57,989 nt of DNA. It comes from a virus. The position numbers and the translations under genes were made by a program. Location of the stretch: IMG/VR virus record IMGVR_UViG_3300044635_001982, positions 1-57,989 of that record; one strand, 5' to 3'. Positions 12,201-57,989 of this stretch are shown here, piece after piece (the first letter of the stretch is position 1; every line of letters starts with the position of its first letter). Below the pieces are notes generated by a model. That model did not search any database, was not told where the DNA came from, and saw nothing but the letters and a program-made list of their open reading frames with translations.

Positions 12201-15200
12201 CGGCGGGACTGGAGCAGCGCGACGGGCGGGTGCTGCGGCAGGGCAATCTGCACATGGACATGAAGATTCCCATCGAGCTGATCCGCTATGGGATGAAGGA
12301 CACGCTCGACGAGGCGCTGTGGGGCATCCTGGAGCGCAAGCAGCGGTTCATCGTCTCGGCGCTTTCGGGCAAGCTGAACGGGCGGGAGATCGAGGAGGAT
12401 GAGATGACGCTCAACCTCGGCCAGCAGATGGCGATTTTGAGCGGTCCCTACGGGCAGGAGATGTTTGAGACGGACAACCGCATCCGCGAACTCGAATACA
12501 GCCGGCAGGCGCACGCCAGCTCGGTGCGGCGGCGGGATGAGGAGATCGCCGACGCGAAGAAGCAAGTGCGCTCGCTGGAAATGGAGCGCACGGGGAATGA
12601 GCCCAAGTGGGCCAAGCTGGACCGGCTGGCCGCGGCGGTGCAAAAGGACGGCGCGCTGCTGACGGTGGACGGGGAGGCATTCGAGACGAAGAAAGCGATG
12701 CTCGAAGCGGTGAACGCGGAGATACAGACGGCGCGGCAGGAATTTGAGAAGCGGGCGGAACTCGACAAGAAAGCAGTGCCGCCGACGCTGACGAGCATCG
12801 TGGCAAACGGCGTGCCGCTGCGGCTGGAGGGACGGCCCTACACGCAAACGATCTACGGGGAGGAGCAGCAAGCCGTGGGCGAAAAGGTGACGATGGATTT
12901 CCTGCTGGAAGGCCAGCGGTGGAACGGGCGGTTCACGGATGAGAACCATTTCGGCGAGGTGAAGAGCGCGGCCACGCTGGTCTCCCGGCTCGAAGAGCTG
13001 GGCGAGCGGGTGCAGGGGCGGCGGGACAGCCTGCGGCGCAATCTCGACCGCTATACGGCGCTGGCGAATATGGAGCGGCTGGGGGCGTGGGCGCATCAGG
13101 AGGAGTTTGACCGGAAGACGGCGCGGGCGGCGGAGCTGCTGGGGCTGATGCGGGGGGCGGCGGCGGCGGCGGCCCCGACCGCGACGACGGATGAGGCGGA
13201 GCCGCAGGCACCGCGAGAAGGAGAGTCCGATGAGGATTGGGCTCAGCGAAATGCCGCATGGCAGGCCGCGCAGGCTTCGACGGCGGAGAGTGATGCGGAC
13301 ATGGTGCTGGGGGCGGCGCGGGTGGGGGAGGAGGAGCGGATTGCGTCGGTGGCCGTGAAGCGCGCGGATGGGAAAGTGTTCACGGGCAACGGAACCCATT
13401 GGGATGTGTACGATGACGCCTTTGCTGGTGATCCCGCGTATGAGTCGAACAACTGGGAATTGCCGCCGGGAACCGTCGATGGGTTCACGACGACTAACGG
13501 CCGGTTTCTTGACCGGGAGGACGCTTACTCCCTGGCGCAGAAGTATCTCGATCTTCCGAGCGATGGGGCTTACGCGAAGATTGGAGGATTGGAGAGCGAA
13601 GAGTTTTACCACTCGGAAACCGAGGCGGGGTTAATGCGCGGGCAGTCGCTCGGGGCTTCGCAGGTGACGGATTCCGGGCGGGCGGAAATGCGGGTGAAGG
13701 ACGAACGGCGAATGGCGAATGACGCGCTGCAGCCGGCGAAGTCGGTGGCGGAGCTGGTGAAGGAGAACATGGGGCTGGCGGTGACGATCGCGAATGCCTA
13801 CCGGAACATTCCGGGGCACGATTGGGACAACGTGCTGGGCGAGGCGCGGAAGGCGCTGGTGAAGGCGGCGCGGGGTTTCGATGCTGACCGGGGCGGGGCT
13901 CCGTTTGGGGCGTATGCGGGGACGGCGATTCGGAACACGCTGAACAATCTTTTCAACAAGAACGCGCGGACGGCGGCGCGGGAGGTGGCGAGCGCGGATG
14001 AGGAGGGAGAGAATGAGGGAGAGGGAGAGAGTCTGAAAAACAGGCTGGTGGATGAGGGCGCGCGGGCGCGCGTGAGCGGGGGCATCGAGGGCCGCGAGAC
14101 GAGCGCGGAACTGGCGGAGGCGATGGCGGGGCTGCCGGATCGGGTGCGGACGGTGCTGACGATGCACGGCGAGGGTGCGGGGCTGCGGGAGATCGGGACG
14201 GCCATCGGGCTGAGCCACGAGATGGCGCGGCGGATTTTGGCGAATGGGACGAAGGCGGTGGAGGCGCGGCTGCGGGAGCGGGGGTTCAAGGGGGTGGATG
14301 AGGATGGGGTGCTGTATGCGGCGAAGGTGGACAAGTTGGAAGGAGTGGAGTTTTACCGGAGCGGAGCGACCACGGACGCGCTCCTCGACGCCTATCAGAA
14401 CACGGGCTCAAACATCGGCGTGGATGTGCAAACCCTTGGGAAGTCGCACGAGGAAAAGCTCACGCGCTACGCGAAGCGTGGCGGCAAGGTCTTTGTCGAT
14501 TCGGGCGCGTTCGGGGTGCGCCAGCGGGGCGGCGCGGTGGATTTCGAATTTGTCTTCGCGCGTTACGAGAAAATGCTCGGTGCCGCGGGCGACGGGGCCG
14601 CAAACTTCAGCCTGGTCATGCCGGACGTGATCGGGGATCAAGCGGGGACGCTGTCTTTGGTGCGGCGGTATGCGGACCGGATTCGCATGATTGCGAGGCG
14701 CGGGGCGCGGCTGATCGTTCCGGCGCAAACCGCGGGCGGCAGTCTCGACCTGGCTGAACTGGCGCAGAAATACGCGGACATCCTCAAGATTCCTTTCGCG
14801 CTCGGCATCCCCTCGAAGATGGACGCGACACCGCGCGCGGATGTGGTGGCATTCTTCGCAGAGGCCAAGCCTAACGATGTGCATTTGCTGGGGATCGGGG
14901 TAAATGCCGCGACGCAGCCGTATCTCGAAGCGCTGCGCGCCAATTCGCCGGGGACGAACCTGACGATGGATGCAACGTGGCATCGCGCCAAAGTCGGGCA
15001 GGGGCGTCCTATCACGGAAGTGCGCAACCAGCTTTTTAAGGACGCCGCCGATGACACGGAAATGGCGGCAAGCATTTACGTGGACGGGTGGGTGCCGACC
15101 GATGAAGAGGCGGATGTCATTCTCTCGGTCTATGGCGGAACGGCGCTCGGCGTGCGGCAGGCTGCGCTCAAGGGCGAACTTGGCGAGTATCTCGCCGGTC

Positions 15201-18455: not shown

Positions 18456-18483
18456 TTGCGCAAACGGAAGCCGGAGGATTTAA
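18456..18483 (+). promoter_or_regulatory. Class B-like promoter candidate (divergent -10)
   Basis: TTGCGC (18456-18461) is followed, after a 16-base spacer, by ATTTAA (18478-18483), close to the ATG at 18494. The -35 and the spacing match the class B family, but the -10 does not show the TARC form. Confidence 0.35.
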
Positions 18484-23215: not shown

Positions 23216-23244
23216 GTTGAGTGTTGAAAGTTGAGTGTTGAGTG
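23216..23244. repeat. Heptamer repeat (GTTGAGW)n
   Basis: Four tandem 7-base units of the GTTGAGT/GTTGAAA type between the connector-like and RyR-domain genes. It is one of twelve such arrays in the window. Confidence 0.85.
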
Positions 23245-26767: not shown

Positions 26768-26795
26768 CGGTTAGGCGCGGGCGGGGTTTAGGCAA
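26768..26795 (-). promoter_or_regulatory. Class B promoter candidate for the scaffold gene
   Basis: On the minus strand TTGCCT (26795-26790), a 16-base spacer and TAACCG (26773-26768) end 10 nt before the ATG at 26757. Confidence 0.6.
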
Positions 26796-27332: not shown

Positions 27333-27360
27333 CGGTTATGGGCGCGGGCGGATTGGGCAA
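27333..27360 (-). promoter_or_regulatory. Class B promoter candidate before 27296
   Basis: TTGCCC (27360-27355), a 16-base spacer and TAACCG (27338-27333) on the minus strand. The start codon is 36 nt further, so this copy would give a short leader rather than a leaderless mRNA. Confidence 0.5.
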
Positions 27361-30872: not shown

Positions 30873-30900
30873 GGGCTACGGGCGCGCGGAAGTTGGGCAA
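30873..30900 (-). promoter_or_regulatory. Class B promoter candidate before 30863
   Basis: TTGCCC (30900-30895), a 16-base spacer and TAGCCC (30878-30873) on the minus strand. The -10 ends 9 nt before the GTG start. Confidence 0.6.
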
Positions 30901-34180: not shown

Positions 34181-34208
34181 CAGCTACGGGCGGGGCGGGG
34201 TTAGGCAA
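34181..34208 (-). promoter_or_regulatory. Class B promoter candidate for the portal operon
   Basis: TTGCCT (34208-34203), a 16-base spacer and TAGCTG (34186-34181) on the minus strand, 10 nt before the ATG at 34170. Its core (TTGCCTAAC, then TAGCTG) is nearly the same as the copy at 49819. Confidence 0.65.
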
Positions 34209-34370: not shown

Positions 34371-36071
34371 TTACCGCGTCGCGGCCTCCGTCGTCTGGCG
34401 TTTTTTCTGGAGCATTTTCCAAAGCGGGTAGTCGATGGTGCGGCGCCCGAGCATGAGCCAGGCGGTGACGGATGAACTCTGGCCGATGCGATGCACGCGG
34501 TCAATCGCCTGATCGAGCAGCGCGGGCGTCCACGGCAGTTCAAGGACGAGGACGTTGCTCGCCGCGGTGAGGGTGAGGCCCACGCCGCCGGCCTGCAGAT
34601 TGGCGAAGAGCAGCGGCATCGCGCGGTCGCTTTGGAAGCGCTCGACCGCCGCCTGACGGCTGGCCGCGGGCGTGTCGCCGTCGATGATCGGCGTGCCGGG
34701 GAAGGCGGCGGCGAGCGCGGCGAGGGTTTCCCGGTGCCAGGCGAAGACCACGAGCTTTTCGCCGCTGGCGAGAAAGTTGCCGATCCATTCCTGCGCGGCG
34801 TCGAGCTTGCCGCGGGCGGCGATCTGCCGGAGCGCGTTGAGGCGGACCAGTTCCTCGGCCTGCGCGGCGCGGTCGGCGGCGTGCTGGGCGCGGTGCAGGA
34901 CGGCCATGATCTTTGCCTCCTCGTCGAGCCCGTGTAACAGGGCGCGGAATTCCGGGTCGCGTCCGGCGCGGGCGGCGATCCAATCGAGCACGTCGCGCTG
35001 GGCGAGGTCGTATTCCGCGCGCACGGCAGCCGGGAGATCGACGGGCAGCCGGGCGAGGCGTTTGGGCGGCAGCTCGGGGAGCACGTCGCGTTTGCGCCGG
35101 CGGACCATGCACGTCGCCCGCAGCCGGGCGGCGAGTTCCGCGAGATTCGAGGAGCCGGTGTAGTCGCGCACCATGATCTTTGCCACCGCTCCCCGCTGGC
35201 GGCGCTCCACGTCCTGCGGGCCGCAATAGCGTTCGCGGAAGTGCTCGAAGCCGCCGAGGTCGTCGAGCCGCCCGAGGATGCAGAGCGGGGCCAGCAACTC
35301 GGCGGCGCGGTTGAGCACGGGCGTGCCGGTGAGCAGCAGCCGCACGTCCACGCCGCGGCGCAGTTCCTTGGCGGCGAGGGTGCGCTGGCTGTCGTGGGTT
35401 TTGAGCAGATGGCCCTCGTCGAAGACCACGCCGCGGAGATCGAGCGTGCGCAAACCGGTCACATGGTCCGGCAGGAGATCGTAGCTGATGAGGATGATGT
35501 CGGGCGTCCGGTCGAGGGTGTCTGGCAGTCCGGCGATCATCACCGCACGATGCGGGAGCCACGCGGCCAGCTCCTGCTCCCAGTTCAGCAGCAGGCCGGC
35601 GGGAGCGACGATCACGGCGGGAAACGCGCCGAGGCTTTCGAGCGTGGCGATGGCCTCGACGGTTTTGCCGAGCCCCATTTCATCGGCGATCAAACAGCGG
35701 CGCGCGGCCACCGCGTAAGCCACGCCGGCGCGCTGGAAGGGCAGGAGCGTGCCGCGCAGCGTGGCCGGCGGCGTGAAAGCGGCATCCTCCGCGCGGGAGG
35801 CGCTGATGGTCTCGCGCACGGCGGAGAAAAGCCGCTCCTGCGCGGTGGCCGCGGCGGACGCGCCCGCGAAGCCGTGGGCGCTGGCGAAGGCTGTGATCGC
35901 GCGGATGTTCGCCGCGCGCACCCGCACCGTGAAGGCGCGCAGCGTGCCATTCCACGTCACGCCGGGGATCGTCTGTTTCAGATCGTCGATCAGCTCCTGC
36001 TCGAACGGAAAGCGGAATTGCGCCTGGCCTCCCGGCGTGAGGGTGAGCGTGCGCGCCGGGGCGATGTTCAT
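34371..36071 (-). CDS. SNF2-family DEAD-like helicase (SMARCAL1-like, 566 aa)
   Basis: The ATG at 36071 follows GGAG by 4 bases (GGCGGAGAAAATG), which decides the start. Motifs: Walker A DEMGLGKT (residues 130-137), DEGH box (218-221) in place of DEAH, LTGTPVLN, and motif VI QAIDRVHRIGQ (about 521-531). The compact form with a short N-terminal domain is common in phages and resembles annealing-type SNF2 ATPases such as SMARCAL1. It would move on duplex DNA, with roles in replication, recombination or displacing host proteins. It is distinct from the helicase inside the giant protein. Confidence 0.85.
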   Translation of the reverse strand: MNIAPARTLTLTPGGQAQFRFPFEQELIDDLKQTIPGVTWNGTLRAFTVRVRAANIRAITAFASAHGFAGASAAATAQERLFSAVRETISASRAEDAAFTPPATLRGTLLPFQRAGVAYAVAARRCLIADEMGLGKTVEAIATLESLGAFPAVIVAPAGLLLNWEQELAAWLPHRAVMIAGLPDTLDRTPDIILISYDLLPDHVTGLRTLDLRGVVFDEGHLLKTHDSQRTLAAKELRRGVDVRLLLTGTPVLNRAAELLAPLCILGRLDDLGGFEHFRERYCGPQDVERRQRGAVAKIMVRDYTGSSNLAELAARLRATCMVRRRKRDVLPELPPKRLARLPVDLPAAVRAEYDLAQRDVLDWIAARAGRDPEFRALLHGLDEEAKIMAVLHRAQHAADRAAQAEELVRLNALRQIAARGKLDAAQEWIGNFLASGEKLVVFAWHRETLAALAAAFPGTPIIDGDTPAASRQAAVERFQSDRAMPLLFANLQAGGVGLTLTAASNVLVLELPWTPALLDQAIDRVHRIGQSSSVTAWLMLGRRTIDYPLWKMLQKKRQTTEAATR

Positions 36072-39163: not shown

Positions 39164-39169
39164 GGCGGC

Positions 39170-43126: not shown

Positions 43127-43154
43127 TTGCCCGGCTCCCCCAATGACTTAACCC
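43127..43154 (+). promoter_or_regulatory. Class B promoter candidate (internal)
   Basis: TTGCCC (43127-43132), a 16-base spacer and TAACCC (43149-43154). The ATG at 43172 is 17 nt beyond, so a short leader would remain. Confidence 0.4.
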
Positions 43155-43171: not shown

Positions 43172-43513
43172 ATGCCCGACCAACCCATCCGACCCATCCC
43201 TCTTCCGCAGTCCGACCCGGAATCTCTCTCCCATCCTTTTCCCGCGAACCTGCCGGCGGATAAGTGCCTGGCGCTGCTGCGCGCGGGCCGGGCGGTGCGT
43301 TATGAGACGCGCGAACTGGCGGGGGCATTCATGGAGATCACCCTCCACGGCAAAACGAGCCGACTGCCCGTCCCGGGCCGCTATGCGGTGATTGCGCACG
43401 CCGACGGCGCGGAAACGCTCGCGGCGCTCAATCTCACCGGGGAGCAGGCGCGCGACCGCGTGAAGCGGCTGAACGCGCCGGGCCGCCCCTCGGGAACTTA
43501 CTCGCTCTCGTGA
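43172..43513 (+). CDS. Unknown protein upstream of pol X-like gene (113 aa)
   Basis: The Pro-rich N-terminus is followed by a domain with ADKCLALLRAGRAVRYETRE and GRYAVIAHADGAETLAALNL, ending GRPSGTYSLS. The start at 43172 follows the internal class B promoter. It overlaps the next gene by 4 bases. No family is recognised. Confidence 0.5.
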   Translation: MPDQPIRPIPLPQSDPESLSHPFPANLPADKCLALLRAGRAVRYETRELAGAFMEITLHGKTSRLPVPGRYAVIAHADGAETLAALNLTGEQARDRVKRLNAPGRPSGTYSLS

Positions 43514-48251: not shown

Positions 48252-48541
48252 CAACGAACCAAATCCAAATCGGAACCAAAATCGAACGCATCGCCAGCGA
48301 CTACACCGGAGGCCGCAAGGGCACGGTGATCGAAATCAAAGACGGTCGAGCCCGCATCGTGTGGGATGCCGGCCACCCTCGGACGTGGATCAAGTTTGCC
48401 GCTTTGCTCGTGCTCGCGCAGCCGTCGCAGACGGTGCGCGGCGAGTGGGTCGCAACTCCCGGCAGCAAGCGACACAGCGCAATCCGGGTTTGCACAAACG
48501 AAGCGCGCGGCGAAACCTGGCACGAATACCAAAAGCTATGA
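48248..48541 (+). CDS. KOW/Tudor-like small protein (97 aa)
   Basis: The N-terminal half has a KOW-type beta barrel pattern (IGTKIERIASDYTGGRKGTV, then IEIKDGRARIVWD). This fold binds nucleic acid or other proteins. The C-terminus is polar with RGEWVATPGSKRHSAIRVCT. The start at 48248 is right after a good promoter, so it probably leads a unit with the XRE and recombinase genes. Confidence 0.55.
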   Translation: MTTNQIQIGTKIERIASDYTGGRKGTVIEIKDGRARIVWDAGHPRTWIKFAALLVLAQPSQTVRGEWVATPGSKRHSAIRVCTNEARGETWHEYQKL

Positions 48542-48843
48542 CGAACTTTGGTCGCGAACTGAAAGCGCAACGCGCCGCCTGCGGACTCAGCCAGTCGCAG
48601 GCGGCAGCGTGCTTCCGGGATCTGAGCGTGCGGACGCTGCAAGCGTGGGAGACTAGCGAACAGTCTCCGCCGCTGTGGATTCAGCATGTGATTCTTGACA
48701 GGCTCTCGAAGCGGAAATCCCCGGCAGGGCGGGCGGCGGGGGCTGGGGTGGGTAAGAAAGCGCGACGGACGAAGAAGGGAAAGGCACTGAACTGTGATTC
48801 TCCAACAGATCGTTCGATAACCAACAGAGAAAAGACCCCATGA
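48538..48843 (+). CDS. XRE-family HTH regulator (101 aa)
   Basis: Residues about 5-55 form a lambda-repressor-like helix-turn-helix: RELKAQRAACGLSQSQAAAC, then LSVRTLQAWETSEQSPPLW. The C-terminal half is basic and disordered. It overlaps both neighbours by 4 bases. It may control the recombinase downstream or its own promoter at 48213-48241. Confidence 0.75.
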   Translation: MTNFGRELKAQRAACGLSQSQAAACFRDLSVRTLQAWETSEQSPPLWIQHVILDRLSKRKSPAGRAAGAGVGKKARRTKKGKALNCDSPTDRSITNREKTP

Positions 48844-49826
48844 ATACGAAACTCAATCAGGCACTGCAAAAGATGGAGGATTGGATGGTGTTGAAACATC
48901 GCGACCGGAAGACGCGGGCGACCTATCGGCGGCAGGCCGAGCGTTACTCCGCATGGCTCCAGGCGCGGCGCGATCTGCATGCCGTTTCCAGCGAGCGCAA
49001 GATCGAGGCTTATCTCACCATGCGGGCGCGCGAGGACTGCGCGCCCAGTACGCAGAATGTCGCCTTTCATGCGCTGCGGTGCTTTTACGAGCACGGGCTC
49101 GGGATCGGTCTCGGGGATATTTCGGCGCTGCGGGCGCGCCGGGAGCCGACCATCCGGCGGGCACCCTCGGTGGAGGAAACGCGGGCTATCCTCGCGGCGG
49201 CGCGACCGCTCTATGGCTACCCGTGCGACATGATCATCGAGTGGATTTACGCGAGTGGGTTGCGGGTAAGCGAGCCTCTGAACGCGCGACTGAAGGACAT
49301 CGACACTGCGCATTCCCGGTTCACGGTGCGCGATGGAAAGCACGGGGTTTCGCGGGTGGTGCCGATCCCGTGCGCGCTACTGCCGCGGCTGCTGGAGCAA
49401 ATGAAGTGGGCGGCGATGATCTGGAGCCGGGATGCGGCGGTGCCGGTCCCGGTGCCGCTGCCGGGAAAGCTGGCGCGGAAATATCCTCGGGCGCAGTTTG
49501 CCAAAGCGTGGGCGTGGCTGTTTCCGGCGAAGGAGCCGATCCGGTTTGATGGCTTTCCGGGGCTGGTGCGCTGGCGCATCCACGAATCGGCGGTGCAGCG
49601 GGCATTCAAGGCGGCGGTGCGGGCGTGCGGAGCGAGCGAGGATCTGACGCCGCATCATTTGCGGCACGCTTACGCCACGCATCTGCTGACGGAGACGCGG
49701 GCGAATGTGCGCGATGTGCAGGTGGCGATGGGACACCGGCAGATGCAGACGACGGCGGGATACATCACGCCGGAGATCGGGCGGCTGCCGGTGCCTCCGG
49801 CGCTGGCGGAGAATCGGCTTGCCTAA
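48840..49826 (+). CDS. Tyrosine recombinase, integron-integrase (IntI)-like
   Basis: 328 aa with all catalytic residues visible: Arg142 (GLRVSE), Lys167 (GKHG), His272 or His273 and Arg275 (HHLRHAYATH), His299 (GH) and Tyr308 (GYITPE). Between the Lys and the second Arg it has the extra segment of IntI proteins (LARKYPRAQFAKAWAWLFPA, then HESAVQRAFKAAV). This insert is used by IntI to bind folded attC sites. A phage-borne copy, next to attC-like repeats at 46468 and 47108, suggests cassette capture or a resolution function. It could instead be a divergent XerC-like dimer resolvase. Confidence 0.8.
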   Translation: MNTKLNQALQKMEDWMVLKHRDRKTRATYRRQAERYSAWLQARRDLHAVSSERKIEAYLTMRAREDCAPSTQNVAFHALRCFYEHGLGIGLGDISALRARREPTIRRAPSVEETRAILAAARPLYGYPCDMIIEWIYASGLRVSEPLNARLKDIDTAHSRFTVRDGKHGVSRVVPIPCALLPRLLEQMKWAAMIWSRDAAVPVPVPLPGKLARKYPRAQFAKAWAWLFPAKEPIRFDGFPGLVRWRIHESAVQRAFKAAVRACGASEDLTPHHLRHAYATHLLTETRANVRDVQVAMGHRQMQTTAGYITPEIGRLPVPPALAENRLA

Positions 49827-49846
49827 CGGCGGGGCGCGGGTAGCTG
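49819..49846 (+). promoter_or_regulatory. Class B promoter
   Basis: TTGCCT (49819-49824), a 16-base spacer and TAGCTG (49841-49846), 8 nt before the ATG at 49855. It overlaps the end of the recombinase gene. Confidence 0.65.
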
Positions 49847-49854
49847 CGCGGGCC

Positions 49855-50193
49855 ATGCCGAAGAAAAAAGCCGCGGTCGCGGCCAAGCGAGCGAAGGCGA
49901 AAGCCTCGAACCTCCCAAAAACCGAGCCTCCGAAGAATCCGGCCAAACCGGCGAAGGCCGCGGAGAAAAAGCCGTGCCAGGCGCTGGATATGCGCAAGGC
50001 TTACCAGGCGGAGATCAAGGCGCTGCGGGCGCAGGTGAAGAAGCGGACGGCGGGGCAGGTGAAGGAGCTGGCGGTTTTGCAAAAGGAGATCGCGGCGCGT
50101 GAACTCCAGAAAAAGCGGATCGAGAGCGCGACGGGCAAGGAAGTGGCGGCGCTGGAAAAACGGATCGCGGTGCTGGAGGGACGCAACTCGTGA
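49855..50193 (+). CDS. Lys/Ala-rich coiled-coil protein, unknown (112 aa)
   Basis: Basic disordered N-terminus (MPKKKAAVAAKRAKAKASNL), then a coiled coil (YQAEIKALRAQVKKRTAGQV, then ELAVLQKEIAARELQKKRIE). It is under a class B promoter. It overlaps the next GTG start by 4 bases. No family is recognised. Confidence 0.55.
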   Translation: MPKKKAAVAAKRAKAKASNLPKTEPPKNPAKPAKAAEKKPCQALDMRKAYQAEIKALRAQVKKRTAGQVKELAVLQKEIAARELQKKRIESATGKEVAALEKRIAVLEGRNS

Positions 50194-50666
50194 CGGTGGC
50201 GGAGATCCGGGCGGACGTGGACCGGGGAATCGAGATCGCGGAAAAGATGGCGGCGCTGAAAAAGGAGAAGGAGGAGATCGAGGAGCGGCTGGTCAAGGCG
50301 GGGCTGGCCGGAGAGCAGGTCGCGCTGGAAGACGAGGAGCGGGAGGGCCGGCAGTATCTGGCGCGCGGCTCGAAGCTGGTGGTGCCGGTGGTCTTCACGG
50401 CGGACATGGTGGTGAAAACTTTTGCGGCGGAGAGTTCGGTGCATCGGCAGATCGCGAAGGCGGCCGGCGACAAGCTGGCGTCTTTTTACGCGGAGAAGAA
50501 GACGCTGACGGCGATTTTCGACACGGGAAAACTGCTGCGGCGGCAGGCGGCGGAGGTGTTTGGTGCGGATGCGCCGGCGTTTGTTTCGGCGTGCCTGGCG
50601 CGAGATAAATTCGGGGTGGTAAAGAGCCAGGAGCGGGTGGAGTGGGGCCGGGCGAGCGAGGGGTAG
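50190..50666 (+). CDS. Unknown protein, helical (158 aa)
   Basis: Starts with GTG at 50190 (GTGA overlap). An N-terminal coiled coil (AEIRADVDRGIEIAEKMAAL, then KKEKEEIEERLVKAG) is followed by a mixed domain (KLVVPVVFTADMVVKTFAAE, then KLASFYAEKKTLTAIFDTG). It is co-transcribed with the 112-aa coiled-coil gene. No family is recognised. Confidence 0.55.
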   Translation: MTVAEIRADVDRGIEIAEKMAALKKEKEEIEERLVKAGLAGEQVALEDEEREGRQYLARGSKLVVPVVFTADMVVKTFAAESSVHRQIAKAAGDKLASFYAEKKTLTAIFDTGKLLRRQAAEVFGADAPAFVSACLARDKFGVVKSQERVEWGRASEG

Positions 50667-50936
50667 GAATTTAGGATTTGGGATTCAGGAGTTTGGAAGG
50701 GGGAAAACCGGAGGCGCGGAAATGCGGGTTTTTCTCTTTTGGCGGGTGTTCATAAAGTCCCCCGGATTTGGGGAGGAAAGGGGCTGTTCACAAGAGGGTC
50801 GATACTTGAACGCCTTCCGCGACGGTTTGTAAATGGCTGGCGTGGAACACGTTGCGGAACGGCGAAAAACGGGGGCTTACAGAGGGGCGCGGGGAGGGCT
50901 TGCGCAACGCGCAAATGGGGGTAGCGCGCCGGGGGG
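50667..50936. other. 270-base intergenic region upstream of the serine recombinase
   Basis: Contains a TCCCC/GGGGA hairpin near 50760 and, at its right end, a class B promoter. As with other resolvases, the recombination site could lie here, but no clear paired subsites were seen. Confidence 0.35.
50900..50927 (+). promoter_or_regulatory. Class B promoter
   Basis: TTGCGC (50900-50905), a 16-base spacer and TAGCGC (50922-50927), 9 nt before the ATG at 50937. Confidence 0.6.
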
Positions 50937-51566
50937 ATGAATGAACAGACGCCGGAAGAAAACCCGAGGGTGGCGCTGTATCTGCGGGTCTCGACGGCGG
51001 AGCAGGATCACGAGCCGCAGCGCATGGAGCTGCTGGATTTCTGCCGGCGGCGGAAGTGGACGGCGTGGACGGAATACGCGGACCAAATCTCCGGGGCGAA
51101 GTGGACGCGGGCGGGACTCGACGGACTGATGCGCGCGGTGCGGAAGCGGAAGGTGGATGTGGTGCTGTGTGTGAAGCTCGACCGGCTGGGGCGCTCGCTC
51201 TCGCACCTCGCGCAACTGATCGCGGAGTTTGACAAGCATGAGGTGGCGGTGATCTGCACGACCCAGGGGATCGACACCTCGCACAGCAATCCGGCGGGGC
51301 GGCTGCAGATGCATGTGCTGATGGCGGTCGCGGAATTCGAGCGGTCGCTGATCCGGGAGCGGACGAAGGCGGGACTGGTGGCGGCGGTGGCTCGGGGATC
51401 GAAGCTGGGGAGGCCGCGGGCGGATGCGGACAGCGGGGCGCGGGTGGCGGCGTGTCTGGCGCGAGTGCCGAGGCCGGGACTGCGCGCGGTCGCGAAGGAA
51501 TTGAAGCTGAGCTTGGGGCTGGTGGCGCGGCTGGCGAAGGCGGGGCGGGGGAAAGTTGAGAGTTGA
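50937..51566 (+). CDS. Serine recombinase (resolvase/invertase family)
   Basis: 209 aa. ALYLRVSTAEQ holds the catalytic Ser at about residue 19; CVKLDRLGRSL and FERSLIRERTKAGL are the conserved resolvase motifs. A short C-terminal HTH follows (GLRAVAKELKLSLGLVARLA). This size matches Tn3/Gin-type resolvases and invertases rather than large integrases. It could invert a fibre segment, resolve multimers or move DNA. The last residues GKVES come from the heptamer repeat. Confidence 0.85.
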   Translation: MNEQTPEENPRVALYLRVSTAEQDHEPQRMELLDFCRRRKWTAWTEYADQISGAKWTRAGLDGLMRAVRKRKVDVVLCVKLDRLGRSLSHLAQLIAEFDKHEVAVICTTQGIDTSHSNPAGRLQMHVLMAVAEFERSLIRERTKAGLVAAVARGSKLGRPRADADSGARVAACLARVPRPGLRAVAKELKLSLGLVARLAKAGRGKVES

Positions 51567-51583
51567 GAGTTGAGTGTTGAGTG
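51555..51583. repeat. Heptamer repeat (GTTGAGW)n
   Basis: It overlaps the 3' end of the serine recombinase and supplies its VES residues and TGA stop. Confidence 0.85.
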
Positions 51584-51594
51584 ACGCGGGTGTG

Positions 51595-51623
51595 TTGACG
51601 ATTGCGTGGCTCGTTTGTGTGGT
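51595..51623 (+). promoter_or_regulatory. Class A promoter
   Basis: TTGACG (51595-51600), a 17-base spacer ending GTTTG and TGTGGT (51618-51623), 8 nt before the ATG at 51632. Very similar to 55732-55760. Confidence 0.75.
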
Positions 51624-51631
51624 CTTAGTGC

Positions 51632-51967
51632 ATGAAAAAAGAACCAACAAAAACCGAAGCGCCGGCGGTCACGAGTCCGGCGCACACTCCGGGGCCGTGG
51701 AAAATGAGCGGCAGCACCACGGCGGTCTATCGCGCTGTGCAAGACGGGAATTGGGCGGGGCACAGCGACCTGAACGAACCAATCGCTTGGCTCACCGACA
51801 CGGGCCGGAACGCCGAGGAAACGGAGGCGAACGCGCGGCTGATTGCGGCCGCGCCGGAACTGCTCGCCGCGCTGAAAAAGATCGACGCCAACGCGGCTGA
51901 ATCCCCGGAGTGGATTCGGCGGGTTGCACGGAAAGCGCGGCGGAAAGCGGAAGGGAGGGCGGAATGA
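51632..51967 (+). CDS. Phage accessory protein with NARLIAAAPELL motif (111 aa)
   Basis: MKKEPTKTEAPAVTSPAHTP, then a domain ending NARLIAAAPELLAALKKID. The HTPGPW start and NARLIAAAPELL end are seen in many phage early proteins of unknown role. The last residues RRKAEGRAE and the first 13 residues are the same as in the gene at 55769, whose middle is different. It sits on a class A promoter and overlaps the next gene. Confidence 0.65.
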   Translation: MKKEPTKTEAPAVTSPAHTPGPWKMSGSTTAVYRAVQDGNWAGHSDLNEPIAWLTDTGRNAEETEANARLIAAAPELLAALKKIDANAAESPEWIRRVARKARRKAEGRAE

Positions 51968-52170
51968 GCGCGGCGGAGATGATGGGAAGGGTGGGGAAGG
52001 ATGGGGTCTGGAATGTGGAAGGGGTGCGGGTGCTGGTGCGAATCATGGATGCCCGGATGGTGTTCAACCGCCTCGACTTCAAAATCGTGCCTCTCATGGG
52101 CGCGGGTGAAGTGTGGGTGTCCGCGGCGCGCGTGGGCGAACCGGCGAAAGCGGAAGGGGGTGCGAAGTGA
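51964..52170 (+). CDS. Small protein, unknown (68 aa)
   Basis: MSAAEMMGRVGKDGVWNVEG, then a beta-like part VRVLVRIMDARMVFNRLDFK. It overlaps both neighbours by 4 bases. The gene at 55945 occupies the matching place in the second copy but has a different sequence. Confidence 0.5.
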   Translation: MSAAEMMGRVGKDGVWNVEGVRVLVRIMDARMVFNRLDFKIVPLMGAGEVWVSAARVGEPAKAEGGAK

Positions 52171-52415
52171 ACGCGCTTTATCTCGGCTGCACTGCGGCGC
52201 GGCACGCGCGCTTGGGAATCCACGCGGTGGTCAACGCGCGCGGCGGACACGCGGCGCTGAACGCGCCGACAATCGAGGACACGGAAATGATGAGGGACGC
52301 GCGGAAGGTGCGCGACCGGATCGAGCGGCGCGTGAGGTTCTATCAGTTCAACAGCCGGTTCTTTCGGCGGAACCACAAGCGCCTCGCGCATCTGGTGAGC
52401 AGTCCCGAGGACTGA
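52167..52415 (+). CDS. Small basic protein, unknown (82 aa)
   Basis: Starts with GTG (GTGA overlap): MNALYLGCTAARHARLGIHA, then DARKVRDRIERRVRFYQFNS and SRFFRRNHKRLAHLVSSPE. Basic and probably helical, maybe nucleic-acid binding. It ends just before the class B promoter of the terminase genes. Confidence 0.5.
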   Translation: MNALYLGCTAARHARLGIHAVVNARGGHAALNAPTIEDTEMMRDARKVRDRIERRVRFYQFNSRFFRRNHKRLAHLVSSPED

Positions 52416-52421
52416 GAGGGC

Positions 52422-52449
52422 TTGCGTTTTGCGGCGGTGCGCGTAGCGG
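52422..52449 (+). promoter_or_regulatory. Class B promoter for the terminase operon
   Basis: TTGCGT (52422-52427), a 16-base spacer and TAGCGG (52444-52449), 9 nt before the ATG at 52459. Confidence 0.65.
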
Positions 52450-52458
52450 GCGCGGGGC

Positions 52459-53112
52459 ATGAAGAAGAAAAAGGGGCCGGCGAAAGCCGCTCCGAAGAAA
52501 AGCGGAAAACGCCGAGACGCAGAGACGCGGAGGAAAACGCCCGCGGGCCAAAAGACACGACTGCCGGGAAGTCGTGCATCGGCGAAGGCCAAAGGTGGGC
52601 GGGGGAAGAAAAGTCCGCCGGTGCAGGATGCGCCGGCCAGCGCTCAGGATGAGCGCGCTACCCTGTCCGCTCGGCAGGAAAATTTCTGTCAGGAATATGT
52701 GAAGGGGGGGACGGCGACGGAGGCTTATGAAAAGGCTTATGGGAAGGTGAAGGGTGCGGAGGTGAGCGCGAGTCGGCTGCTAAGTAATGCTAAGGTGGCG
52801 GCGAGGGTGAAGGCGCTGCAGGAGGAGGCGGCGAAAGGGGCGGTGCTGAGCCTGCAGGAGACGCTGGAGTATTTTCGCAAGGTGGTGCTGACGCCGATCG
52901 GGGAGGTGGATGAGCGGAGCGTGCTCTGCCAGTCGGCGGAGCACAGCGACACGGGGACGAAATTCAAGATGCCGTGCAAGCTGAAGGCGCTGGAACTGAA
53001 TGCGAAGCTGCAGGGCTGGCTGCGCGAGAAGGTGGAGCACACGATCGAGCAGGATGGGCTGGCGGCGCTGATGACGAAGATTCGCGATGGACTGCGCCCA
53101 ACTGCTGAGTGA
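52459..53112 (+). CDS. terS: Terminase small subunit
   Basis: 217 aa. A basic disordered N-terminus of about 65 residues is followed by the Terminase_2 pattern LSARQENFCQEYVKGGTATE then AYEKAYGKVKGAEVSASRLL, an HTH that recognises the packaging site. The C-terminus contains EKVEHTIEQDGLAALMTKIR. It overlaps the large subunit by 26 nt. The long basic tail is unusual. Confidence 0.8.
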   Translation: MKKKKGPAKAAPKKSGKRRDAETRRKTPAGQKTRLPGSRASAKAKGGRGKKSPPVQDAPASAQDERATLSARQENFCQEYVKGGTATEAYEKAYGKVKGAEVSASRLLSNAKVAARVKALQEEAAKGAVLSLQETLEYFRKVVLTPIGEVDERSVLCQSAEHSDTGTKFKMPCKLKALELNAKLQGWLREKVEHTIEQDGLAALMTKIRDGLRPTAE

Positions 53113-54610
53113 CCCGCTGTGGAGGATCGGGAACCTCTACGGGATCAAGACCGAGGACGAGGGCCGGCGGCTGCGCTTCGCTCCAAGGCCGGAGCAGTGG
53201 GAGGTGATTCGCGCGCTGACGGAACACCCCGACCAGCCGCTCTACATCATCAAAAGCCGGCGGCTGGGGATGAGCACGGCGCTGGGGATCACGCTGGCGG
53301 ATTGCGCGGCGTGGAGCAGCGGGTTTCAGGGCTCGCTGGTGGACCAGACGCAGGCGGACGCGGAGCGGAAGATGAGCGAGATCATCCGCTACGCGGTGAA
53401 GAGCATGCCCGGGGAGCTGGCGGAGCGGCTGGAGTTTCCAAAGGCGAATGACGGGGAGCTGCAGATCGTGGTGCGGGGGCAGGATGCGCGGGCGAGTTCG
53501 CGCATTTTCGCGGGGAAGAACGCGCGCGGCGGGACGAACAATTTTTTGTGGATTTCGGAGTGGGGGCCGATCGCGGCGAACGACCCGCGGCGCTCGACGG
53601 AAATCCGCACCGGGGCGCTGCCCTCGGCCCGGCGCGGGCGGCGGGTGGTGGAGACGACGTGGTATGGCGGGAAGAGCGGAGATCTGTGGGAGCTGGTGAA
53701 ACCGATCCTGGAGCGCGATCCGAACGCGGAGGGGCGGGTGCTCTTTTTCCCGTGGCACGGGGATCCGGCGTGCGTGCGGACGACGGGCGTGGTGACGAAG
53801 GAACTGGAGGAGTATTTCCGGGAGGCGGCGGAGAAGGTGGGGCGGAAATTCAGCCGGGAGCAAAAGCTGTGGTATGGGGCGAAGCAACTGGAGCAGGGGA
53901 TGTTTGTGAAACGGGAATACCCGACGACGATGGAGGAGGCGATGACGGCTCCGGTGGAGGGCTCGATCTACGGGGAGGCGCTGGCGCGGCGGCGGGCGGC
54001 GGGGGCGATCGGGCCGGTGGAGCCGGACGCGGAGGCGCTGGTGAACACGAGCTGGGACCTGGGGAGTCCGATCAATACGGTGTGCTGGTATTTCCAGATG
54101 ATCGGGCGGGAGCTGCGGTTCATCGACGTGGACCTGGACGTGGACCTGACGGCGGCGGAACGGGTGGCGGGAATGCTGCGCAAAGGCTACCGCTTTGGCT
54201 GGCACTACGTGCCGCATGACGCGGCGGCGAAGCAATACAACGGGCGGACGTTTGCGGCGGACCTGGAGGATGCGGGGCTGAAGAATCTGCGGATCGTGCC
54301 GCGGACGGCGGATGAGTGGGTGGGGATCAATCATGTGCGGCAGAACGTGCTGCCGCGGGCGGCGTTCCGGCTGCCGCAGTGCGAGGTGGCGGTGGGGCGG
54401 CTGGAGGCGTTTCGCACAGCGCGGGAGACGAGCGGCGGGCTGGCGAAGGATGCGCCGGTGCATGACATCAACAGCCACGCGGCGGCGGCGCTGCGGACGG
54501 CGGGCGAGGCGGACCTGGCGGGGATGCTGGAGGCGGGGTGGGTGAGGAGCGCGTTTGACGGGGAGGGGTTGAAGGCGCTGCGGATGGGGGCGGGGAAAGT
54601 TGAGAGTTGA
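53087..54610 (+). CDS. terL: Terminase large subunit (ATPase/nuclease)
   Basis: 507 aa. The ATPase P-loop is deviant, KSRRLGMST (residues 56-64), with Lys placed early as in some lambda-like terminases. Walker B is FLWISEWG (Glu158). The nuclease domain has WDLG (about residue 327) and HDINSHAAAAL near the end. It drives DNA packaging into the capsid through the portal and cuts the concatemer. The C-terminus AGKVES is created by the heptamer repeat. Confidence 0.8.
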   Translation: MDCAQLLSDPLWRIGNLYGIKTEDEGRRLRFAPRPEQWEVIRALTEHPDQPLYIIKSRRLGMSTALGITLADCAAWSSGFQGSLVDQTQADAERKMSEIIRYAVKSMPGELAERLEFPKANDGELQIVVRGQDARASSRIFAGKNARGGTNNFLWISEWGPIAANDPRRSTEIRTGALPSARRGRRVVETTWYGGKSGDLWELVKPILERDPNAEGRVLFFPWHGDPACVRTTGVVTKELEEYFREAAEKVGRKFSREQKLWYGAKQLEQGMFVKREYPTTMEEAMTAPVEGSIYGEALARRRAAGAIGPVEPDAEALVNTSWDLGSPINTVCWYFQMIGRELRFIDVDLDVDLTAAERVAGMLRKGYRFGWHYVPHDAAAKQYNGRTFAADLEDAGLKNLRIVPRTADEWVGINHVRQNVLPRAAFRLPQCEVAVGRLEAFRTARETSGGLAKDAPVHDINSHAAAALRTAGEADLAGMLEAGWVRSAFDGEGLKALRMGAGKVES

Positions 54611-54628
54611 GAGTTGAGAGTTGAGTGA
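54599..54628. repeat. Heptamer repeat (GTTGAGW)n
   Basis: Four units overlapping the 3' end of the terminase large gene. The array supplies its stop codon. Confidence 0.85.
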
Positions 54629-54642
54629 CAGAATCTGCCGAC

Positions 54643-54909
54643 ATGAGAACGAAGATCGGCCAAAGAATCATCGAGGCGGCGATACGGGCGCGGGTGGCGG
54701 GTGTCATTGAGAAACAACACACGATCGACGTTTATTTGGGACGCCTGGAGCATGGGGAGTTTCGGGAACAGGAGATGAGGGGGGCGGAAATGATAAGGCG
54801 GGAGACAGCGTTGTATGAGCTGAAGGATTATATTGAGTGGAGCGGCTTTCGTGTTTTCAGGGTGGAGGCAAAGACGCATTTTGGCGTCGGGCTGGTCGGC
54901 ATTCCGTGA
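54643..54909 (+). CDS. Small protein, unknown (88 aa)
   Basis: MRTKIGQRIIEAAIRARVAG, a helical middle (ETALYELKDYIEWSGFRVFR) and FGVGLVGIP at the end. The stop overlaps the next start (TGATG). A GTG at 54625 is an alternative start. No family is recognised. Confidence 0.5.
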   Translation: MRTKIGQRIIEAAIRARVAGVIEKQHTIDVYLGRLEHGEFREQEMRGAEMIRRETALYELKDYIEWSGFRVFRVEAKTHFGVGLVGIP

Positions 54910-55703
54910 TGGACCGCATCCACCTTTCACGACAGACCACGGGGGAGCTGACGGTGCTGCCGGCGGCGGGGGGGGTGTGGCAGGTGTGGGAGCGGCCACG
55001 GGTGCATTGCCGGTATGTGCTGAGCGTGCGGGGCGGGGGAAAGCCGAAGCTGATCGGGGGGCGGAAGGAACGGGAGCGGAGTGTGGTGCTGGTGTTGCGG
55101 AAATGGTTCGCGACGGAGGGGACGGAGGAGGTCACGCCGACGCGGCTGGTCTGCCGGCTGACGCCGCCGACGGTGCTGGATCTCACGCCGCTGGCGGAGT
55201 TGGTGGCACTGGTGGCGGACTGGTACGGCGGGGCGCTGACTTTCGTGGAGGTGAAGGACGGGGCGCTGCTGGCGAAGGAATGCCAGCGGGTGGGCGTGGC
55301 GGTGCAGGTGCAGGAGCGGCTGGATTTGGCGACGAGCCGCTTTACGCCGGACCTCGGGTGGCTGACGGACGGGGAGACGGGACCGGCGGCGCTGAATGCG
55401 CTGGTTAATGCCATCCGGGCGACGGGCCAGTGGACGGCGAAGGGCAAGGATGAAGGCGGAAGGATGAAGGATGAGGTCAACGAGCACGCGAAGATGGCGC
55501 TCGTTTTGGAATGCCCGCACGCGCTGGCGGAGATCGAGACGTTTGCCGGGGACAGCGAAGCGCCGGCGGTGAGCCATGACGACGATGTGCGGGCGCTGGC
55601 GACGGGGCTTTACAACATCGACGCGGCGACGCGGCTGAACGCGGAGGCGAGGCGCAAGGTGGGGCCGCGGGATGGGTGGAAGGCGGGAGTGCTGCGGAGT
55701 TGA
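54909..55703 (+). CDS. Possible second terminase-nuclease-like (RNase H fold) protein (264 aa)
   Basis: Pattern resembling the C-terminal nuclease domain of large terminases: RYVLSVRGGG, VEVKDGALLAKECQRVGVAV, ALVLECPHALAEIETFAGDS and SHDDDVRALATGLYNID (an HDD-like metal site). There is no ATPase domain. The first acidic residue is not obvious, so it may be inactive. It follows the terminase genes closely. It could be an accessory packaging nuclease, or a remnant of another terminase. Confidence 0.45.
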   Translation: MDRIHLSRQTTGELTVLPAAGGVWQVWERPRVHCRYVLSVRGGGKPKLIGGRKERERSVVLVLRKWFATEGTEEVTPTRLVCRLTPPTVLDLTPLAELVALVADWYGGALTFVEVKDGALLAKECQRVGVAVQVQERLDLATSRFTPDLGWLTDGETGPAALNALVNAIRATGQWTAKGKDEGGRMKDEVNEHAKMALVLECPHALAEIETFAGDSEAPAVSHDDDVRALATGLYNIDAATRLNAEARRKVGPRDGWKAGVLRS

Positions 55704-55713
55704 GTGTTGAGTG
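55699..55713. repeat. Short heptamer repeat
   Basis: Two units, whose first TGA is the stop codon of the preceding gene. Confidence 0.75.
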
Positions 55714-55731
55714 AAAAAGCGGGTGGGGCGG

Positions 55732-55760
55732 TTGACGCTTTTGCGCGGCGTTTGTGTGGT
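55732..55760 (+). promoter_or_regulatory. Class A promoter
   Basis: TTGACG (55732-55737), a 17-base spacer ending GTTTG and TGTGGT (55755-55760), 8 nt before the ATG at 55769. Confidence 0.75.
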
Positions 55761-55768
55761 CTTAGTGC

Positions 55769-55948
55769 ATGAAAAAAGAACCAACAAAAACCGAAGCGCC
55801 GGCGGTCATAAGTCCGGCGCGAATTCTCTCTCCGCGGGCGCGGGCGGAATACTACGAGGTGATGCTGCCGGCCTGGGCGCGCCCTCGCCCGATGGCGGAA
55901 TGGGCGGCACGCTTGCCGCGGCGGAAAGCGGAAGGGAGGGCGGAATGA
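55769..55948 (+). CDS. Short relative of the 51632 gene with replaced middle (59 aa)
   Basis: The N-terminus (MKKEPTKTEAPAV) and C-terminus (RRKAEGRAE) match the protein at 51632, but the centre (ARILSPRARAEYYEVMLPAW) is unrelated and shorter. Promoter and first codons are nearly identical at DNA level. It overlaps the next gene by 4 bases. This points to duplication plus recombination between conserved ends. Confidence 0.55.
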   Translation: MKKEPTKTEAPAVISPARILSPRARAEYYEVMLPAWARPRPMAEWAARLPRRKAEGRAE

Positions 55949-56175
55949 GCGGACTAATCCTGAACTGCTTGAAGGCGCACGAGGTGGTAAAGCTCGGAGC
56001 CTTTAGGATCTGCCGATACGACCAAAACAACGAAGTCGGGATTCATGTGAGGGAAGACGGGTCGGGGCTGACCTTTTTCGACAAGCTCACTACGGCGGGA
56101 ATGAAACGCACTGAAAAATGGATCATCCGAACGAAGGCTGAACGTGCTGAGCGGGAAATGAAGGAGGCGGCATGA
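55945..56175 (+). CDS. Small protein, unknown (76 aa)
   Basis: MSGLILNCLKAHEVVKLGAF, a beta-like domain (RICRYDQNNEVGIHVREDGS) and a basic helix (KWIIRTKAERAEREMKEAA). It overlaps both neighbours by 4 bases. No family is recognised. Confidence 0.5.
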   Translation: MSGLILNCLKAHEVVKLGAFRICRYDQNNEVGIHVREDGSGLTFFDKLTTAGMKRTEKWIIRTKAERAEREMKEAA

Positions 56176-56468
56176 GTGCGATTGAAAACTTCCCGATGCT
56201 TGGTCCCTCGCGCTTTGCGGAGTTTGCCGCTGATGTGGAAGCCCATCGCCCCGGCGGGCGCGTGCTCTACGTGTCCGCCGCTGATCTGGCCAGCGTGCTG
56301 GCTCGCGGGAAAACCCAAGTGCCGCGGCGCGACAAGGGTGGGAGGCGGTTGTCAGCGCGGTGGGATGAAATCAAGACCACGCGGGCGCGCGAAGCCTTTG
56401 CCGAGCGCCACGGGTGGCCTTTCACGGTGCATGTGGCGAACCTGGCGGAAGCAAAGGAGGCCGCGTGA
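56172..56468 (+). CDS. Small protein, unknown (98 aa)
   Basis: MSAIENFPMLGPSRFAEFAA, then VLYVSAADLASVLARGKTQV and a basic helix (RWDEIKTTRAREAFAERHGW). It overlaps both neighbours. No family is recognised. Confidence 0.5.
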   Translation: MSAIENFPMLGPSRFAEFAADVEAHRPGGRVLYVSAADLASVLARGKTQVPRRDKGGRRLSARWDEIKTTRAREAFAERHGWPFTVHVANLAEAKEAA

Positions 56469-56671
56469 AAGCAACATCGAGAAACTCCCGCGCTCTGACG
56501 GCCGCACAGAAAGGGGCGCTCAAAGCCTACAACTTCGCGCTTGCCCAAGAAGACCGCTACCTCGGGAGCGTGTTTGTCACTCCCGCCGGGCAGCGCGAAA
56601 AGGAAGCGCAAACGCAGGCGGCTTACGCCGCGTGCAAAGCGCTGGGAATGACGCATGAGCACGGGCTGTAA
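56465..56671 (+). CDS. Small protein, unknown (68 aa)
   Basis: Starts with GTG (GTGA overlap): MKATSRNSRALTAAQKGALK, then LAQEDRYLGSVFVTPAGQRE and AAYAACKALGMTHEHGL. Probably helical. The last gene of its operon, followed by heptamer repeats. Confidence 0.5.
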   Translation: MKATSRNSRALTAAQKGALKAYNFALAQEDRYLGSVFVTPAGQREKEAQTQAAYAACKALGMTHEHGL

Positions 56672-56674
56672 AAG

Positions 56675-56690
56675 AGTTGAGAGTTGAGGG
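56675..56690. repeat. Short heptamer repeat
   Basis: Two degenerate units (GTTGAGA, GTTGAGG) after the 68-aa gene. Confidence 0.7.
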
Positions 56691-56713
56691 GTGAGAGTAA
56701 AGAATCCGCGGCG

Positions 56714-57022
56714 ATGAATAACCCGACCGATGAGAGTGAGGTGGAGAGCATCGCGCCGGAGGAGATGACGACGGCGGCGGGGCTGGTGGCGAAGGTGGTG
56801 GCGGAACGGGAGCGGTGGCTGCGGGCGTGGCACGAAACGGTGATGCAACCGGATCTGCTGCGGTGGCATGACGCGGAGGTGAATTCGCGGTTTGTGGCGC
56901 CGGGAAGCGGCTGGCTGCAAAGCGGGGAGCGGGTGCTGGGGTGGTTCAAGGTGAGGTATCACGAGGGGCTGGGGGATGTGAGGATCGAGGCGGACTGGCC
57001 GGAAGTGGATGTTGCAAGTTGA
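56714..57022 (+). CDS. Small acidic protein, unknown (102 aa)
   Basis: MNNPTDESEVESIAPEEMTT, a helical part (AAGLVAKVVAERERWLRAWH) and a compact end with WFKVRYHEGLGDVRIEADWP. It ends DVAS, and its TGA is inside a heptamer array. It sits between the small-gene operon and the virion gene at 57114. No family is recognised. Confidence 0.5.
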   Translation: MNNPTDESEVESIAPEEMTTAAGLVAKVVAERERWLRAWHETVMQPDLLRWHDAEVNSRFVAPGSGWLQSGERVLGWFKVRYHEGLGDVRIEADWPEVDVAS

Positions 57023-57037
57023 GGGTTGAGTGTTGAG
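57018..57037. repeat. Heptamer repeat (GTTGAGW)n
   Basis: Three units (GTTGAGG, GTTGAGT, GTTGAG) overlapping the 3' end of the 102-aa gene. Confidence 0.8.
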
Positions 57038-57076
57038 GCGGCGGCGAAGAAGCGGAAGGGCCGGGCCAAAAGATTC

Positions 57077-57104
57077 TTGCCGAACTGAGGCGTGACCGTA
57101 GCGG
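57077..57104 (+). promoter_or_regulatory. Class B promoter for the polyvalent-protein operon
   Basis: TTGCCG (57077-57082), a 16-base spacer and TAGCGG (57099-57104), 9 nt before the ATG at 57114. No other promoter is seen before the giant gene, so it probably drives that too. Confidence 0.65.
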
Positions 57105-57113: not shown

Positions 57114-57989
57114 ATGGCTTATCCACGCTCCGCCCGCCGCCGTGAAGAAATGCCGCAACGCCCGCGCATCGATGCGCGAGCGGCGCGGCGCGACCTGAAC
57201 GGGAATGTCATCTCGGAACCGGGGGAGATGGCGTTCACGAAAATGCACCGCGGCATGGATGGGAAGCCGGACAGCGGCGAGAGCATCGGGCGCGGAACGA
57301 CGATGCAGTTCCCCGCGCGGAAATCGGGCCTCGACGGACTGCGACCGCTGGCGGATGCGCCGGCTCAGCGGCAGGGACCGCTGCCGGACGGCGGAACGAT
57401 GGACACGACCACGACGCCTTCGGGGTTTCCGCGCAGCCGGATGACGACGGGCAACGCCGGGGTGGAGATGCGCGGGGCGGAGGAGCGCGGGGCGCAGATG
57501 GCTCCGGCGGCATCGCGGACGGCATTTCCCCGACCGGGAACGGGGGCGAACATCATGCGCCAGCCGGACGGGAGTCCGGGGGGGCTGATCACGGCGGCAC
57601 CGGGGGGAGGGCGCGATCTTTCGAGCGTGTATGGCACGGGGAGTCTGCGGTTTCCGCAGCCTCCAGGGTTGGCGAAGCAGGATATGACGGCGATGCCGCG
57701 ACACAGTGCGCTGCTGCCGACGGCGCGGGTGAGACCTCGGGCGGAGGCGGATGCGCTGGCGGCGAAGCTGGAAAGGCCCGAACCGCAGCCTCCAGGGCTG
57801 GCGAAGCAGGATATGACGGCGATGCCGCGACACAGTGCGCTGCTGCCGACGGCGCGGGTGAGACCTCGGGCGGAGGCGGATGCGCTGGCGGCGAAGCTGG
57901 AAAGGCCCGAACCGCAGCCTCCAGGGCTGGCGAAGCAGGATATGACGGCGATGCCGCGACACAGTGCGCTGCTGCCGACGGCGCGGGTG
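57114..57989 (+). CDS. Repeat-bearing protein, N-terminal part (continues at base 2)
   Basis: Starts MAYPRSARRREEMPQRPRID under a class B promoter. The first 180 residues are rich in Gly, Pro, Arg and Met (GEMAFTKMHRGMDGKPDSGE) and look disordered. From residue 182 on, 43-aa units repeat. The frame runs out of the window and re-enters at base 2 to end at 217, giving about 321 aa as assembled. It leads the operon of the giant protein and may be a virion-internal partner. The array may vary in length. Confidence 0.7.
   Translation, partial: MAYPRSARRREEMPQRPRIDARAARRDLNGNVISEPGEMAFTKMHRGMDGKPDSGESIGRGTTMQFPARKSGLDGLRPLADAPAQRQGPLPDGGTMDTTTTPSGFPRSRMTTGNAGVEMRGAEERGAQMAPAASRTAFPRPGTGANIMRQPDGSPGGLITAAPGGGRDLSSVYGTGSLRFPQPPGLAKQDMTAMPRHSALLPTARVRPRAEADALAAKLERPEPQPPGLAKQDMTAMPRHSALLPTARVRPRAEADALAAKLERPEPQPPGLAKQDMTAMPRHSALLPTARV
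57657..57989 (+). repeat. 129-bp tandem repeat array (43-aa protein repeat)
   Basis: Full units lie at 57732-57860 and 57861-57989. A 75-bp partial unit precedes them at 57657-57731, and another partial unit continues after the junction at 128-166. The unit encodes 43 residues starting RPRAEADALAAKL and ending SALLPTARV. The two full units are identical, so an assembler could collapse or expand the array. The true copy number is unknown. Confidence 0.85.
57863..57989. repeat. Right copy of 127-bp terminal direct repeat
   Basis: Identical to 1-127. Removing one copy gives a circle of about 57,862 bp and restores an uninterrupted gene that starts at 57114 and ends at 217. Confidence 0.9.

Follow-up and report, generated by a model that had tools for sequence, protein, structure and literature searches.

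The phage genome described here, IMG/VR virus record IMGVR_UViG_3300044635_001982 (57,989 nucleotides, the whole of which is termed the window), carries nine copies of a bipartite element in which TTGC and TARC are held at one fixed spacing. These elements, termed class B sites, are not chance occurrences, and they precede, among others, operons for scaffold and capsid, portal, terminase and polyvalent proteins. Sequence evidence gives good support to the view that they constitute a promoter class with its own gene set. A sigma-70 family domain is embedded in the giant polyvalent protein of the same phage, and we regard the chances as even that class B sites act as virion-operon promoters, used by host RNA polymerase and steered by this domain. 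What appears to be new is the combination of a sigma domain conserved inside a giant polyvalent open reading frame (ORF) with a putative private promoter class before virion operons.

Sequence and statistics of class B sites

The pattern TTGC-N18-TARC, corresponding to a spacer of 16 bases, matches at ten positions in the window, compared to zero or one match for each of the other spacers between 10 and 25. Dinucleotide-preserving shuffles contain 1.02 matches on average and at most six in 300 shuffles; the motif is thus about tenfold over-represented, and the prediction of a constant 16-base spacer made in a first-pass annotation of this DNA holds, as does its expectation that shuffled sequence would not match the motif as often. 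The extended form TTGCNNAA-N14-TARC occurs seven times versus 0.03 expected. Moreover, a blind search for pairs of 4-mers separated by a gap, run upstream of 60 called genes, ranked the class B motif top, its two leading pairs being CTTG-d23-TAGC (p ~1e-13) and TTGC-d22-TAGC (p ~9e-13; ~8e5 tests). When scored with a position weight matrix (PWM), the nine sites reach 18-30 bits, and the next best position in the genome 10.6.

The full consensus reads CTTGCNNAA(C)-N13-TARC. A C immediately precedes TTGC at every site, and AA follows TTGCNN at seven of the nine. The sites fail the test for canonical sigma-70 promoters (TTGACA, 16-18 nt, a TATAAT-like box with T at its sixth position): all nine carry TTGC and TARC, the latter in place of the usual TATAAT, and the sixth-position T of TANNNT is missing throughout. 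Copies of CTTGCNNAA that are intergenic or located at a gene end number eight, all of them at gene starts, and seven of these are followed by TARC at spacer 16; the remaining nine copies are intragenic and lack TARC. The eighth (18456..18483, plus strand) is a half site, in which the complete first half CTTGCGCAAAC lies 38 nt upstream of an ATG without a TARC. Accordingly, of the ten candidates listed in the first-pass annotation the nine strong ones are found at exactly the positions given, whereas the weaker one at 18456 lacks the second half of the motif.

Positions 33-65 nt before a called start make up only 1.7% of the total, yet nine of the ten exact matches precede genes. At seven of the nine sites the start codon follows the first T of TTGC by 36-38 nt. 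The tenth exact match (34913..34938, plus strand), which was absent from the earlier list, lies antisense within a helicase gene and scores 6.6 in the PWM; it is therefore rejected as a chance match. The bases flanking TTGC and the start-codon distances are likewise additions of the present analysis.

Genes headed by class B sites

Genes were called with a codon-usage caller written for this analysis and annotated with PHROGs and Pfam; for sites on the minus strand the lower coordinate serves as the name. An exact terminal repeat of 127 bases indicates that the genome is probably circular, with ~57,862 bases and 66% GC.

On the minus strand, the site at 26768..26795 lies 38 nt, counted from the T of TTGC to the A of the ATG, ahead of a scaffold-like gene (25624-26757), which is followed by the major capsid gene (23974-25560); an orthologous site precedes the scaffold gene in relatives. 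The site with the best PWM score (34181..34208) is placed 38 nt before gene 33895-34170, upstream of the portal protein gene (31788-33839). Two further minus-strand sites head runs of small genes: 27333..27360 is located 64 nt before gene 26811-27296 and has no ATG at 36-38 nt, and 30873..30900 lies 37 nt before the GTG of gene 30591-30863, at the head of the run from 27.6 to 30.9 kb.

On the plus strand, the site at 52422..52449 lies 37 nt before the terminase genes (52459..54610), which code for TerS (52459-53112) and TerL (53087-54610). The site at 57077..57104 lies 37 nt before a gene that extends from 57114 to 57989 and over the circular join to 217, and this gene heads the polyvalent operon with the giant ORF 227-18421, likewise on the plus strand. 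Gene 57114 contains a tandem repeat of 43 residues (129 bases), within which the terminal repeat falls, and its repeat copy number in the true genome is therefore uncertain. Additional class B sites are found 36 nt before gene 49855-50193 (49819..49846, overlapping the 3' end of an integrase gene), 37 nt before a serine recombinase gene (50900..50927; gene 50937-51566) and 45 nt before gene 43172-43513, with a gene for a DNA polymerase beta-like nucleotidyltransferase after it. The latter site (43127..43154) is the weakest of the nine and lacks the AA. The gene calls and annotation thus bear out the earlier statement that the sites lie ahead of scaffold, portal-operon, terminase, recombinase and polyvalent-operon genes.

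As expected of a regulon, a single motif precedes several virion-gene operons, and its position is conserved in relatives, where an element of different sequence occupies it. Given that the sites head packaging, portal, scaffold/capsid and polyvalent operons, this regulon would be coordinated and probably late. The first-pass annotation had proposed a phage-specific late regulon: its phage-specific nature is well supported by the non-chance occurrence, the virion operons and a sibling element in relatives, whereas "late" derives from gene content only, and the set also includes the recombinase gene and the small nucleotidyltransferase operon.

A sigma domain in the giant polyvalent protein

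The giant ORF codes for a protein of 6064 amino acids with ddrB-ParB and SNF2/Res helicase domains, and its great size together with its helicase and ParB-type domains places it among the polyvalent (DarB-type) proteins of phages. Residues ~4505-4680 (13745..14260, plus strand) form a sigma-70 family domain with regions 2 and 4 in an ECF-like (extracytoplasmic function) layout, a likely trans-acting factor that had escaped the first-pass annotation. This region matches TIGR02937 above its curated cut-off (E 3e-17 in one search), as well as Pfam Sigma70_r2 and Sigma70_r4, which are adjacent and in order, each slightly under its own cut-off. An AlphaFold (AF2) model built from the family alignment comprises two helical domains (mean pLDDT 71, the domains ~80-90), and virtually every PDB entry that matches it at E <= 1e-3 is a sigma factor or a complex with one. 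The TM-scores are low (~0.3), because the two domains have no fixed placement relative to each other. With regions 2 and 4 in order and a sigma fold, the domain is a member of the sigma-70 family. In annotated phages, tblastn with the sigma region yielded no matches.

IMG/VR contains phages that are 45-62% identical in the helicase part; these relatives are metagenome contigs, several of them incomplete. A domain HMM locates the sigma domain in 17 contigs, within the giant ORF and on the C-terminal side of the helicase; the contigs represent ~13 distinct uncultured phages, some of them retrieved through the sigma domain itself. No sigma domain over the cut-off is found in five known DarB-type phages (Atu_ph08, PBC5, POI1126, Mwe-JY07 and Itty13), in relatives of ~30-35% identity, or in the terminase relatives L003-L013 (47-60% TerL identity), which also lack an enriched motif; with both absent from these terminase relatives, the terminase is mosaic. 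Two near-identical fragments (L002 and L014, 100% identity over 10.1 and 11.8 kb) are uninformative on conservation. Two Verrucomicrobiales metagenome-assembled genome (MAG) contigs encode 45-47% relatives, and the domain is absent from the fetched loci; these contigs hint weakly at a verrucomicrobium as the possible host. In the giant ORFs of G013, G016, G017, G023, G030, G038, G039 and G040, another helix-turn-helix (HTH) with weak similarity to sigma region 4 is located 300-700 residues downstream of the sigma domain.

A sibling element in sigma-bearing relatives

Several relatives (G012/G023, G013, G016/G017, G019, G030, G039 and G040) carry a sibling element, TTGACAGC[GT], which begins with TTGACAGCG and is present in 4-10 copies per contig versus 1-2 expected (contigs counted). 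Where a copy precedes a gene, the start codon mostly follows at 35-41 nt and in some cases at 46-52 nt, and downstream are terminase large subunit, portal and scaffold-like genes as well as the gene just before the giant ORF. Sibling element and class B site thus share gene classes and have a similar distance, but differ in their letters. The five DarB-type control phages without the domain yield mostly Shine-Dalgarno-ATG motifs and 0-2 copies of TTGACAGC.

Upstream of the scaffold orthologues of sigma-bearing phages, TTGAC is found 34-39 nt before the start codon, and the window is the only clade member with TTGC in its place. This difference is paralleled in sigma region 4.2. At the presumed contact positions the window reads SHEMARR (H-E) and is again the only such clade member; most others have K/R-Q (mainly SKQAVSK or SRQ types), and G038, whose site is TTGACA, has R-E (RERVRQ, the same as sigma-70).

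In G022 and G024 a third set of sites, TTGTTGTCA-N17-CTATNGAA, lies before small genes, with a GTG 34 nt from TTGTCA; these sites are probably early promoters.

Proposed mechanism and alternatives

From these sequence features we infer that class B sites mark transcription starts that act late and are read by the sigma domain. Each site would constitute a bipartite promoter of bacterial type, with CTTGCNNAA(C) as -35 region, a spacer of exactly 16 bases and TARC as -10 region. Counted from the first T of TTGC, transcription would start after ~34 nt, either on the start codon or a few bases upstream of it, and the resulting mRNAs would then be leaderless or nearly so. Among the phage proteins searched, no RNA polymerase was recognised, and hence host RNA polymerase would have to transcribe the class B units. 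The best candidate for a specificity factor is the embedded sigma domain; the missing T at -7 and the rigid spacer fit a sigma factor without region 1.2, such as an ECF sigma. With a class B site at the head of the polyvalent operon, the sigma factor would drive its own synthesis. In its most far-reaching form, the polyvalent protein would be delivered with the virion, its sigma domain would commandeer host RNA polymerase for private promoters, and cis element and region 4.2 would co-diverge across the clade; we put this version forward tentatively and consider it doubtful.

A number of observations weigh against a sigma domain that reads class B sites. The first-pass annotation had called for a motif search of the full genome and of relatives; the motif is enriched in the window, but elsewhere its exact form is confined to fragments of the same phage, and the other 44 pattern matches in other phages are single and unenriched. 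The covariation of TTGC with SHEMARR amounts to one event only. The TTGAC of the relatives is an ordinary sigma-70 -35 element, usable there by a host sigma factor. TTGACA-N16-TAAAAC also stands ahead of the scaffold gene of G018, even though no more than a region-4 fragment scores in this phage. In G023 and G040 a perfect palindrome (GACAGCG-N3-CGCTGTC) spans the -35 of several promoter-like sites, and G040 shows no clear -10, an arrangement which resembles the site of a dimeric regulator. The distance of ~37 nt to the ATG also occurs in another promoter-like class of the window and is therefore not specific to class B. Finally, a polyvalent protein injected with the DNA would supply sigma from the very outset, a poor match to a late-only regulon unless some regulation applies to it.

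Some of these points favour an alternative that is a genuine, if lesser, possibility: a sigma factor of the host (housekeeping or ECF) might read class B sites, with the embedded domain used otherwise, e.g., to sequester or redirect polymerase. The sites of the relatives, which combine a TTGAC -35 with a TA-containing -10 at a spacer of ~17, come near ordinary sigma-70 promoters, G018 has such a site without a full sigma domain, and the genomes of the nearest bacterial contigs, the Verrucomicrobiales MAGs, contain 34 and 9 matches to sigma-70-ECF profiles. Yet TTGACA and the -7 T are missing at all nine class B sites, which have a single spacer length, an extra C before and AA after TTGC, and class B occurs in no relative. 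Furthermore, a more sigma-70-like site of the window (39134, TTGACC-N16-GATAGT) looks different. Host sigma-70 promoters as a full account are rejected, as their consensus is unmatched at every class B site; a promoter scan of 36-49.9 kb returned one sigma-70-like site versus 1.3 expected.

It is unlikely that the conserved -35 region represents a dispersed operator, bound by a phage repressor or activator over promoters of host polymerase. Such a regulator would suit the palindrome of G023 and G040, the GTTGA-N7-TCAAC at the scaffold sites of G020 and G038 and the weak palindrome in the window's own TTGCNNAA, and the window encodes an XRE-type HTH protein (48538-48843) and, near 39.1 kb, two proteins of ribbon-helix-helix-like type. 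The C1 operators of phage P1 provide a precedent, being scattered sites that overlap a TTGC-type -35 and are oriented with transcription. However, P1 C1 operators are defined without a fixed -10, whereas the window couples TTGC and TARC at one spacing, and an operator at -35 leaves the TARC 22 bp away unexplained. Intergenic first halves never occur without TARC at spacer 16, except at 18456, and hence lack the independence of C1-type operators.

A chance assembly of short GC-rich words has next to no probability, for it predicts the single match that +34913 seems to be, but not ten matches at an exclusive spacer, nine of them at gene starts and top-ranked in the blind search, and is refuted for the nine sites.

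Other promoter types were considered and set aside. Promoters of a phage single-subunit RNA polymerase are rejected on the grounds that no such polymerase was recognised among the proteins searched and that the site is bipartite, and sigma-54 promoters because the sequence reads no GG-N10-GC. No tRNA or structured RNA was found.

Relation to known phage systems

Phage sigma factors with promoters of their own are known from T4 (gp55), SPO1 (gp28 and gp33/34) and group 2 jumbo phages (PMC7824862). These systems share with the window phage a sigma-family protein, a non-host promoter class and grouped late genes. Yet those sigma factors are small and stand-alone, whereas the window's domain, the function of which is predicted, sits in a 6064-residue polyvalent protein whose operon has its own putative promoter.

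DarB-type polyvalent proteins, e.g., of Agrobacterium phage Atu_ph08 and Sinorhizobium phage PBC5 (Iyer et al. 2017, PMC5512222), are giant ORF products with ParB-like and SNF2-type helicase domains as in the window, at 33-34% identity. They have been proposed to be injected and perhaps to jump-start transcription, and the main text of that paper does not mention sigma. The window differs from the five DarB-type phages searched in its sigma domain, and the presence of its polyvalent protein in the virion is putative.

As a rule, the sigma factors of phages are small proteins in their own right, and the cargo described for polyvalent proteins consists of nucleases, methylases and proteases, in some cases also of an N4-like polymerase. 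If the proposed mechanism is correct, a sigma domain in polyvalent proteins and a private promoter class would represent a further route to seize host transcription. If, moreover, the sigma domain were delivered by the virion, the N4 virion RNA polymerase would have a sigma-based counterpart in it. In both cases transcription machinery resides within a very large phage protein, but N4 employs a single-subunit polymerase that reads hairpin promoters, whereas the window's sigma domain would need host polymerase.

Other elements of the window

The other promoter-like class, TTGACGCTTT...TTTGTGTGGTC, comprises four copies (36715 on the minus strand; 39713, 51595 and 55732 on the plus strand), has its start codon ~33-38 nt from TTGACG and is devoid of a TANNNT box. 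The sigma-70-like site at 39134-39170 reads TTGACC-[GGGAGTGATACTCCC]-GATAGT, with a palindrome within its spacer, and lies between divergent genes for ribbon-helix-helix-like proteins (38709-39089, minus; 39170-39364, plus), an arrangement that resembles a lysis/lysogeny switch. The tail-fibre-like protein encoded by gene 19989-20876 on the minus strand includes a (GPT)n stretch of collagen type. Arrays of (A/T)CTCAAC, a unit of 7 bases repeated three to four times, are found between genes at 23243, 23910, 30948, 31366, 33874, 51582, 54626 and 57038 on the minus strand and at 30999 and 31413 on the plus strand, and several of them lie 5-15 nt before a start codon that has no Shine-Dalgarno sequence.

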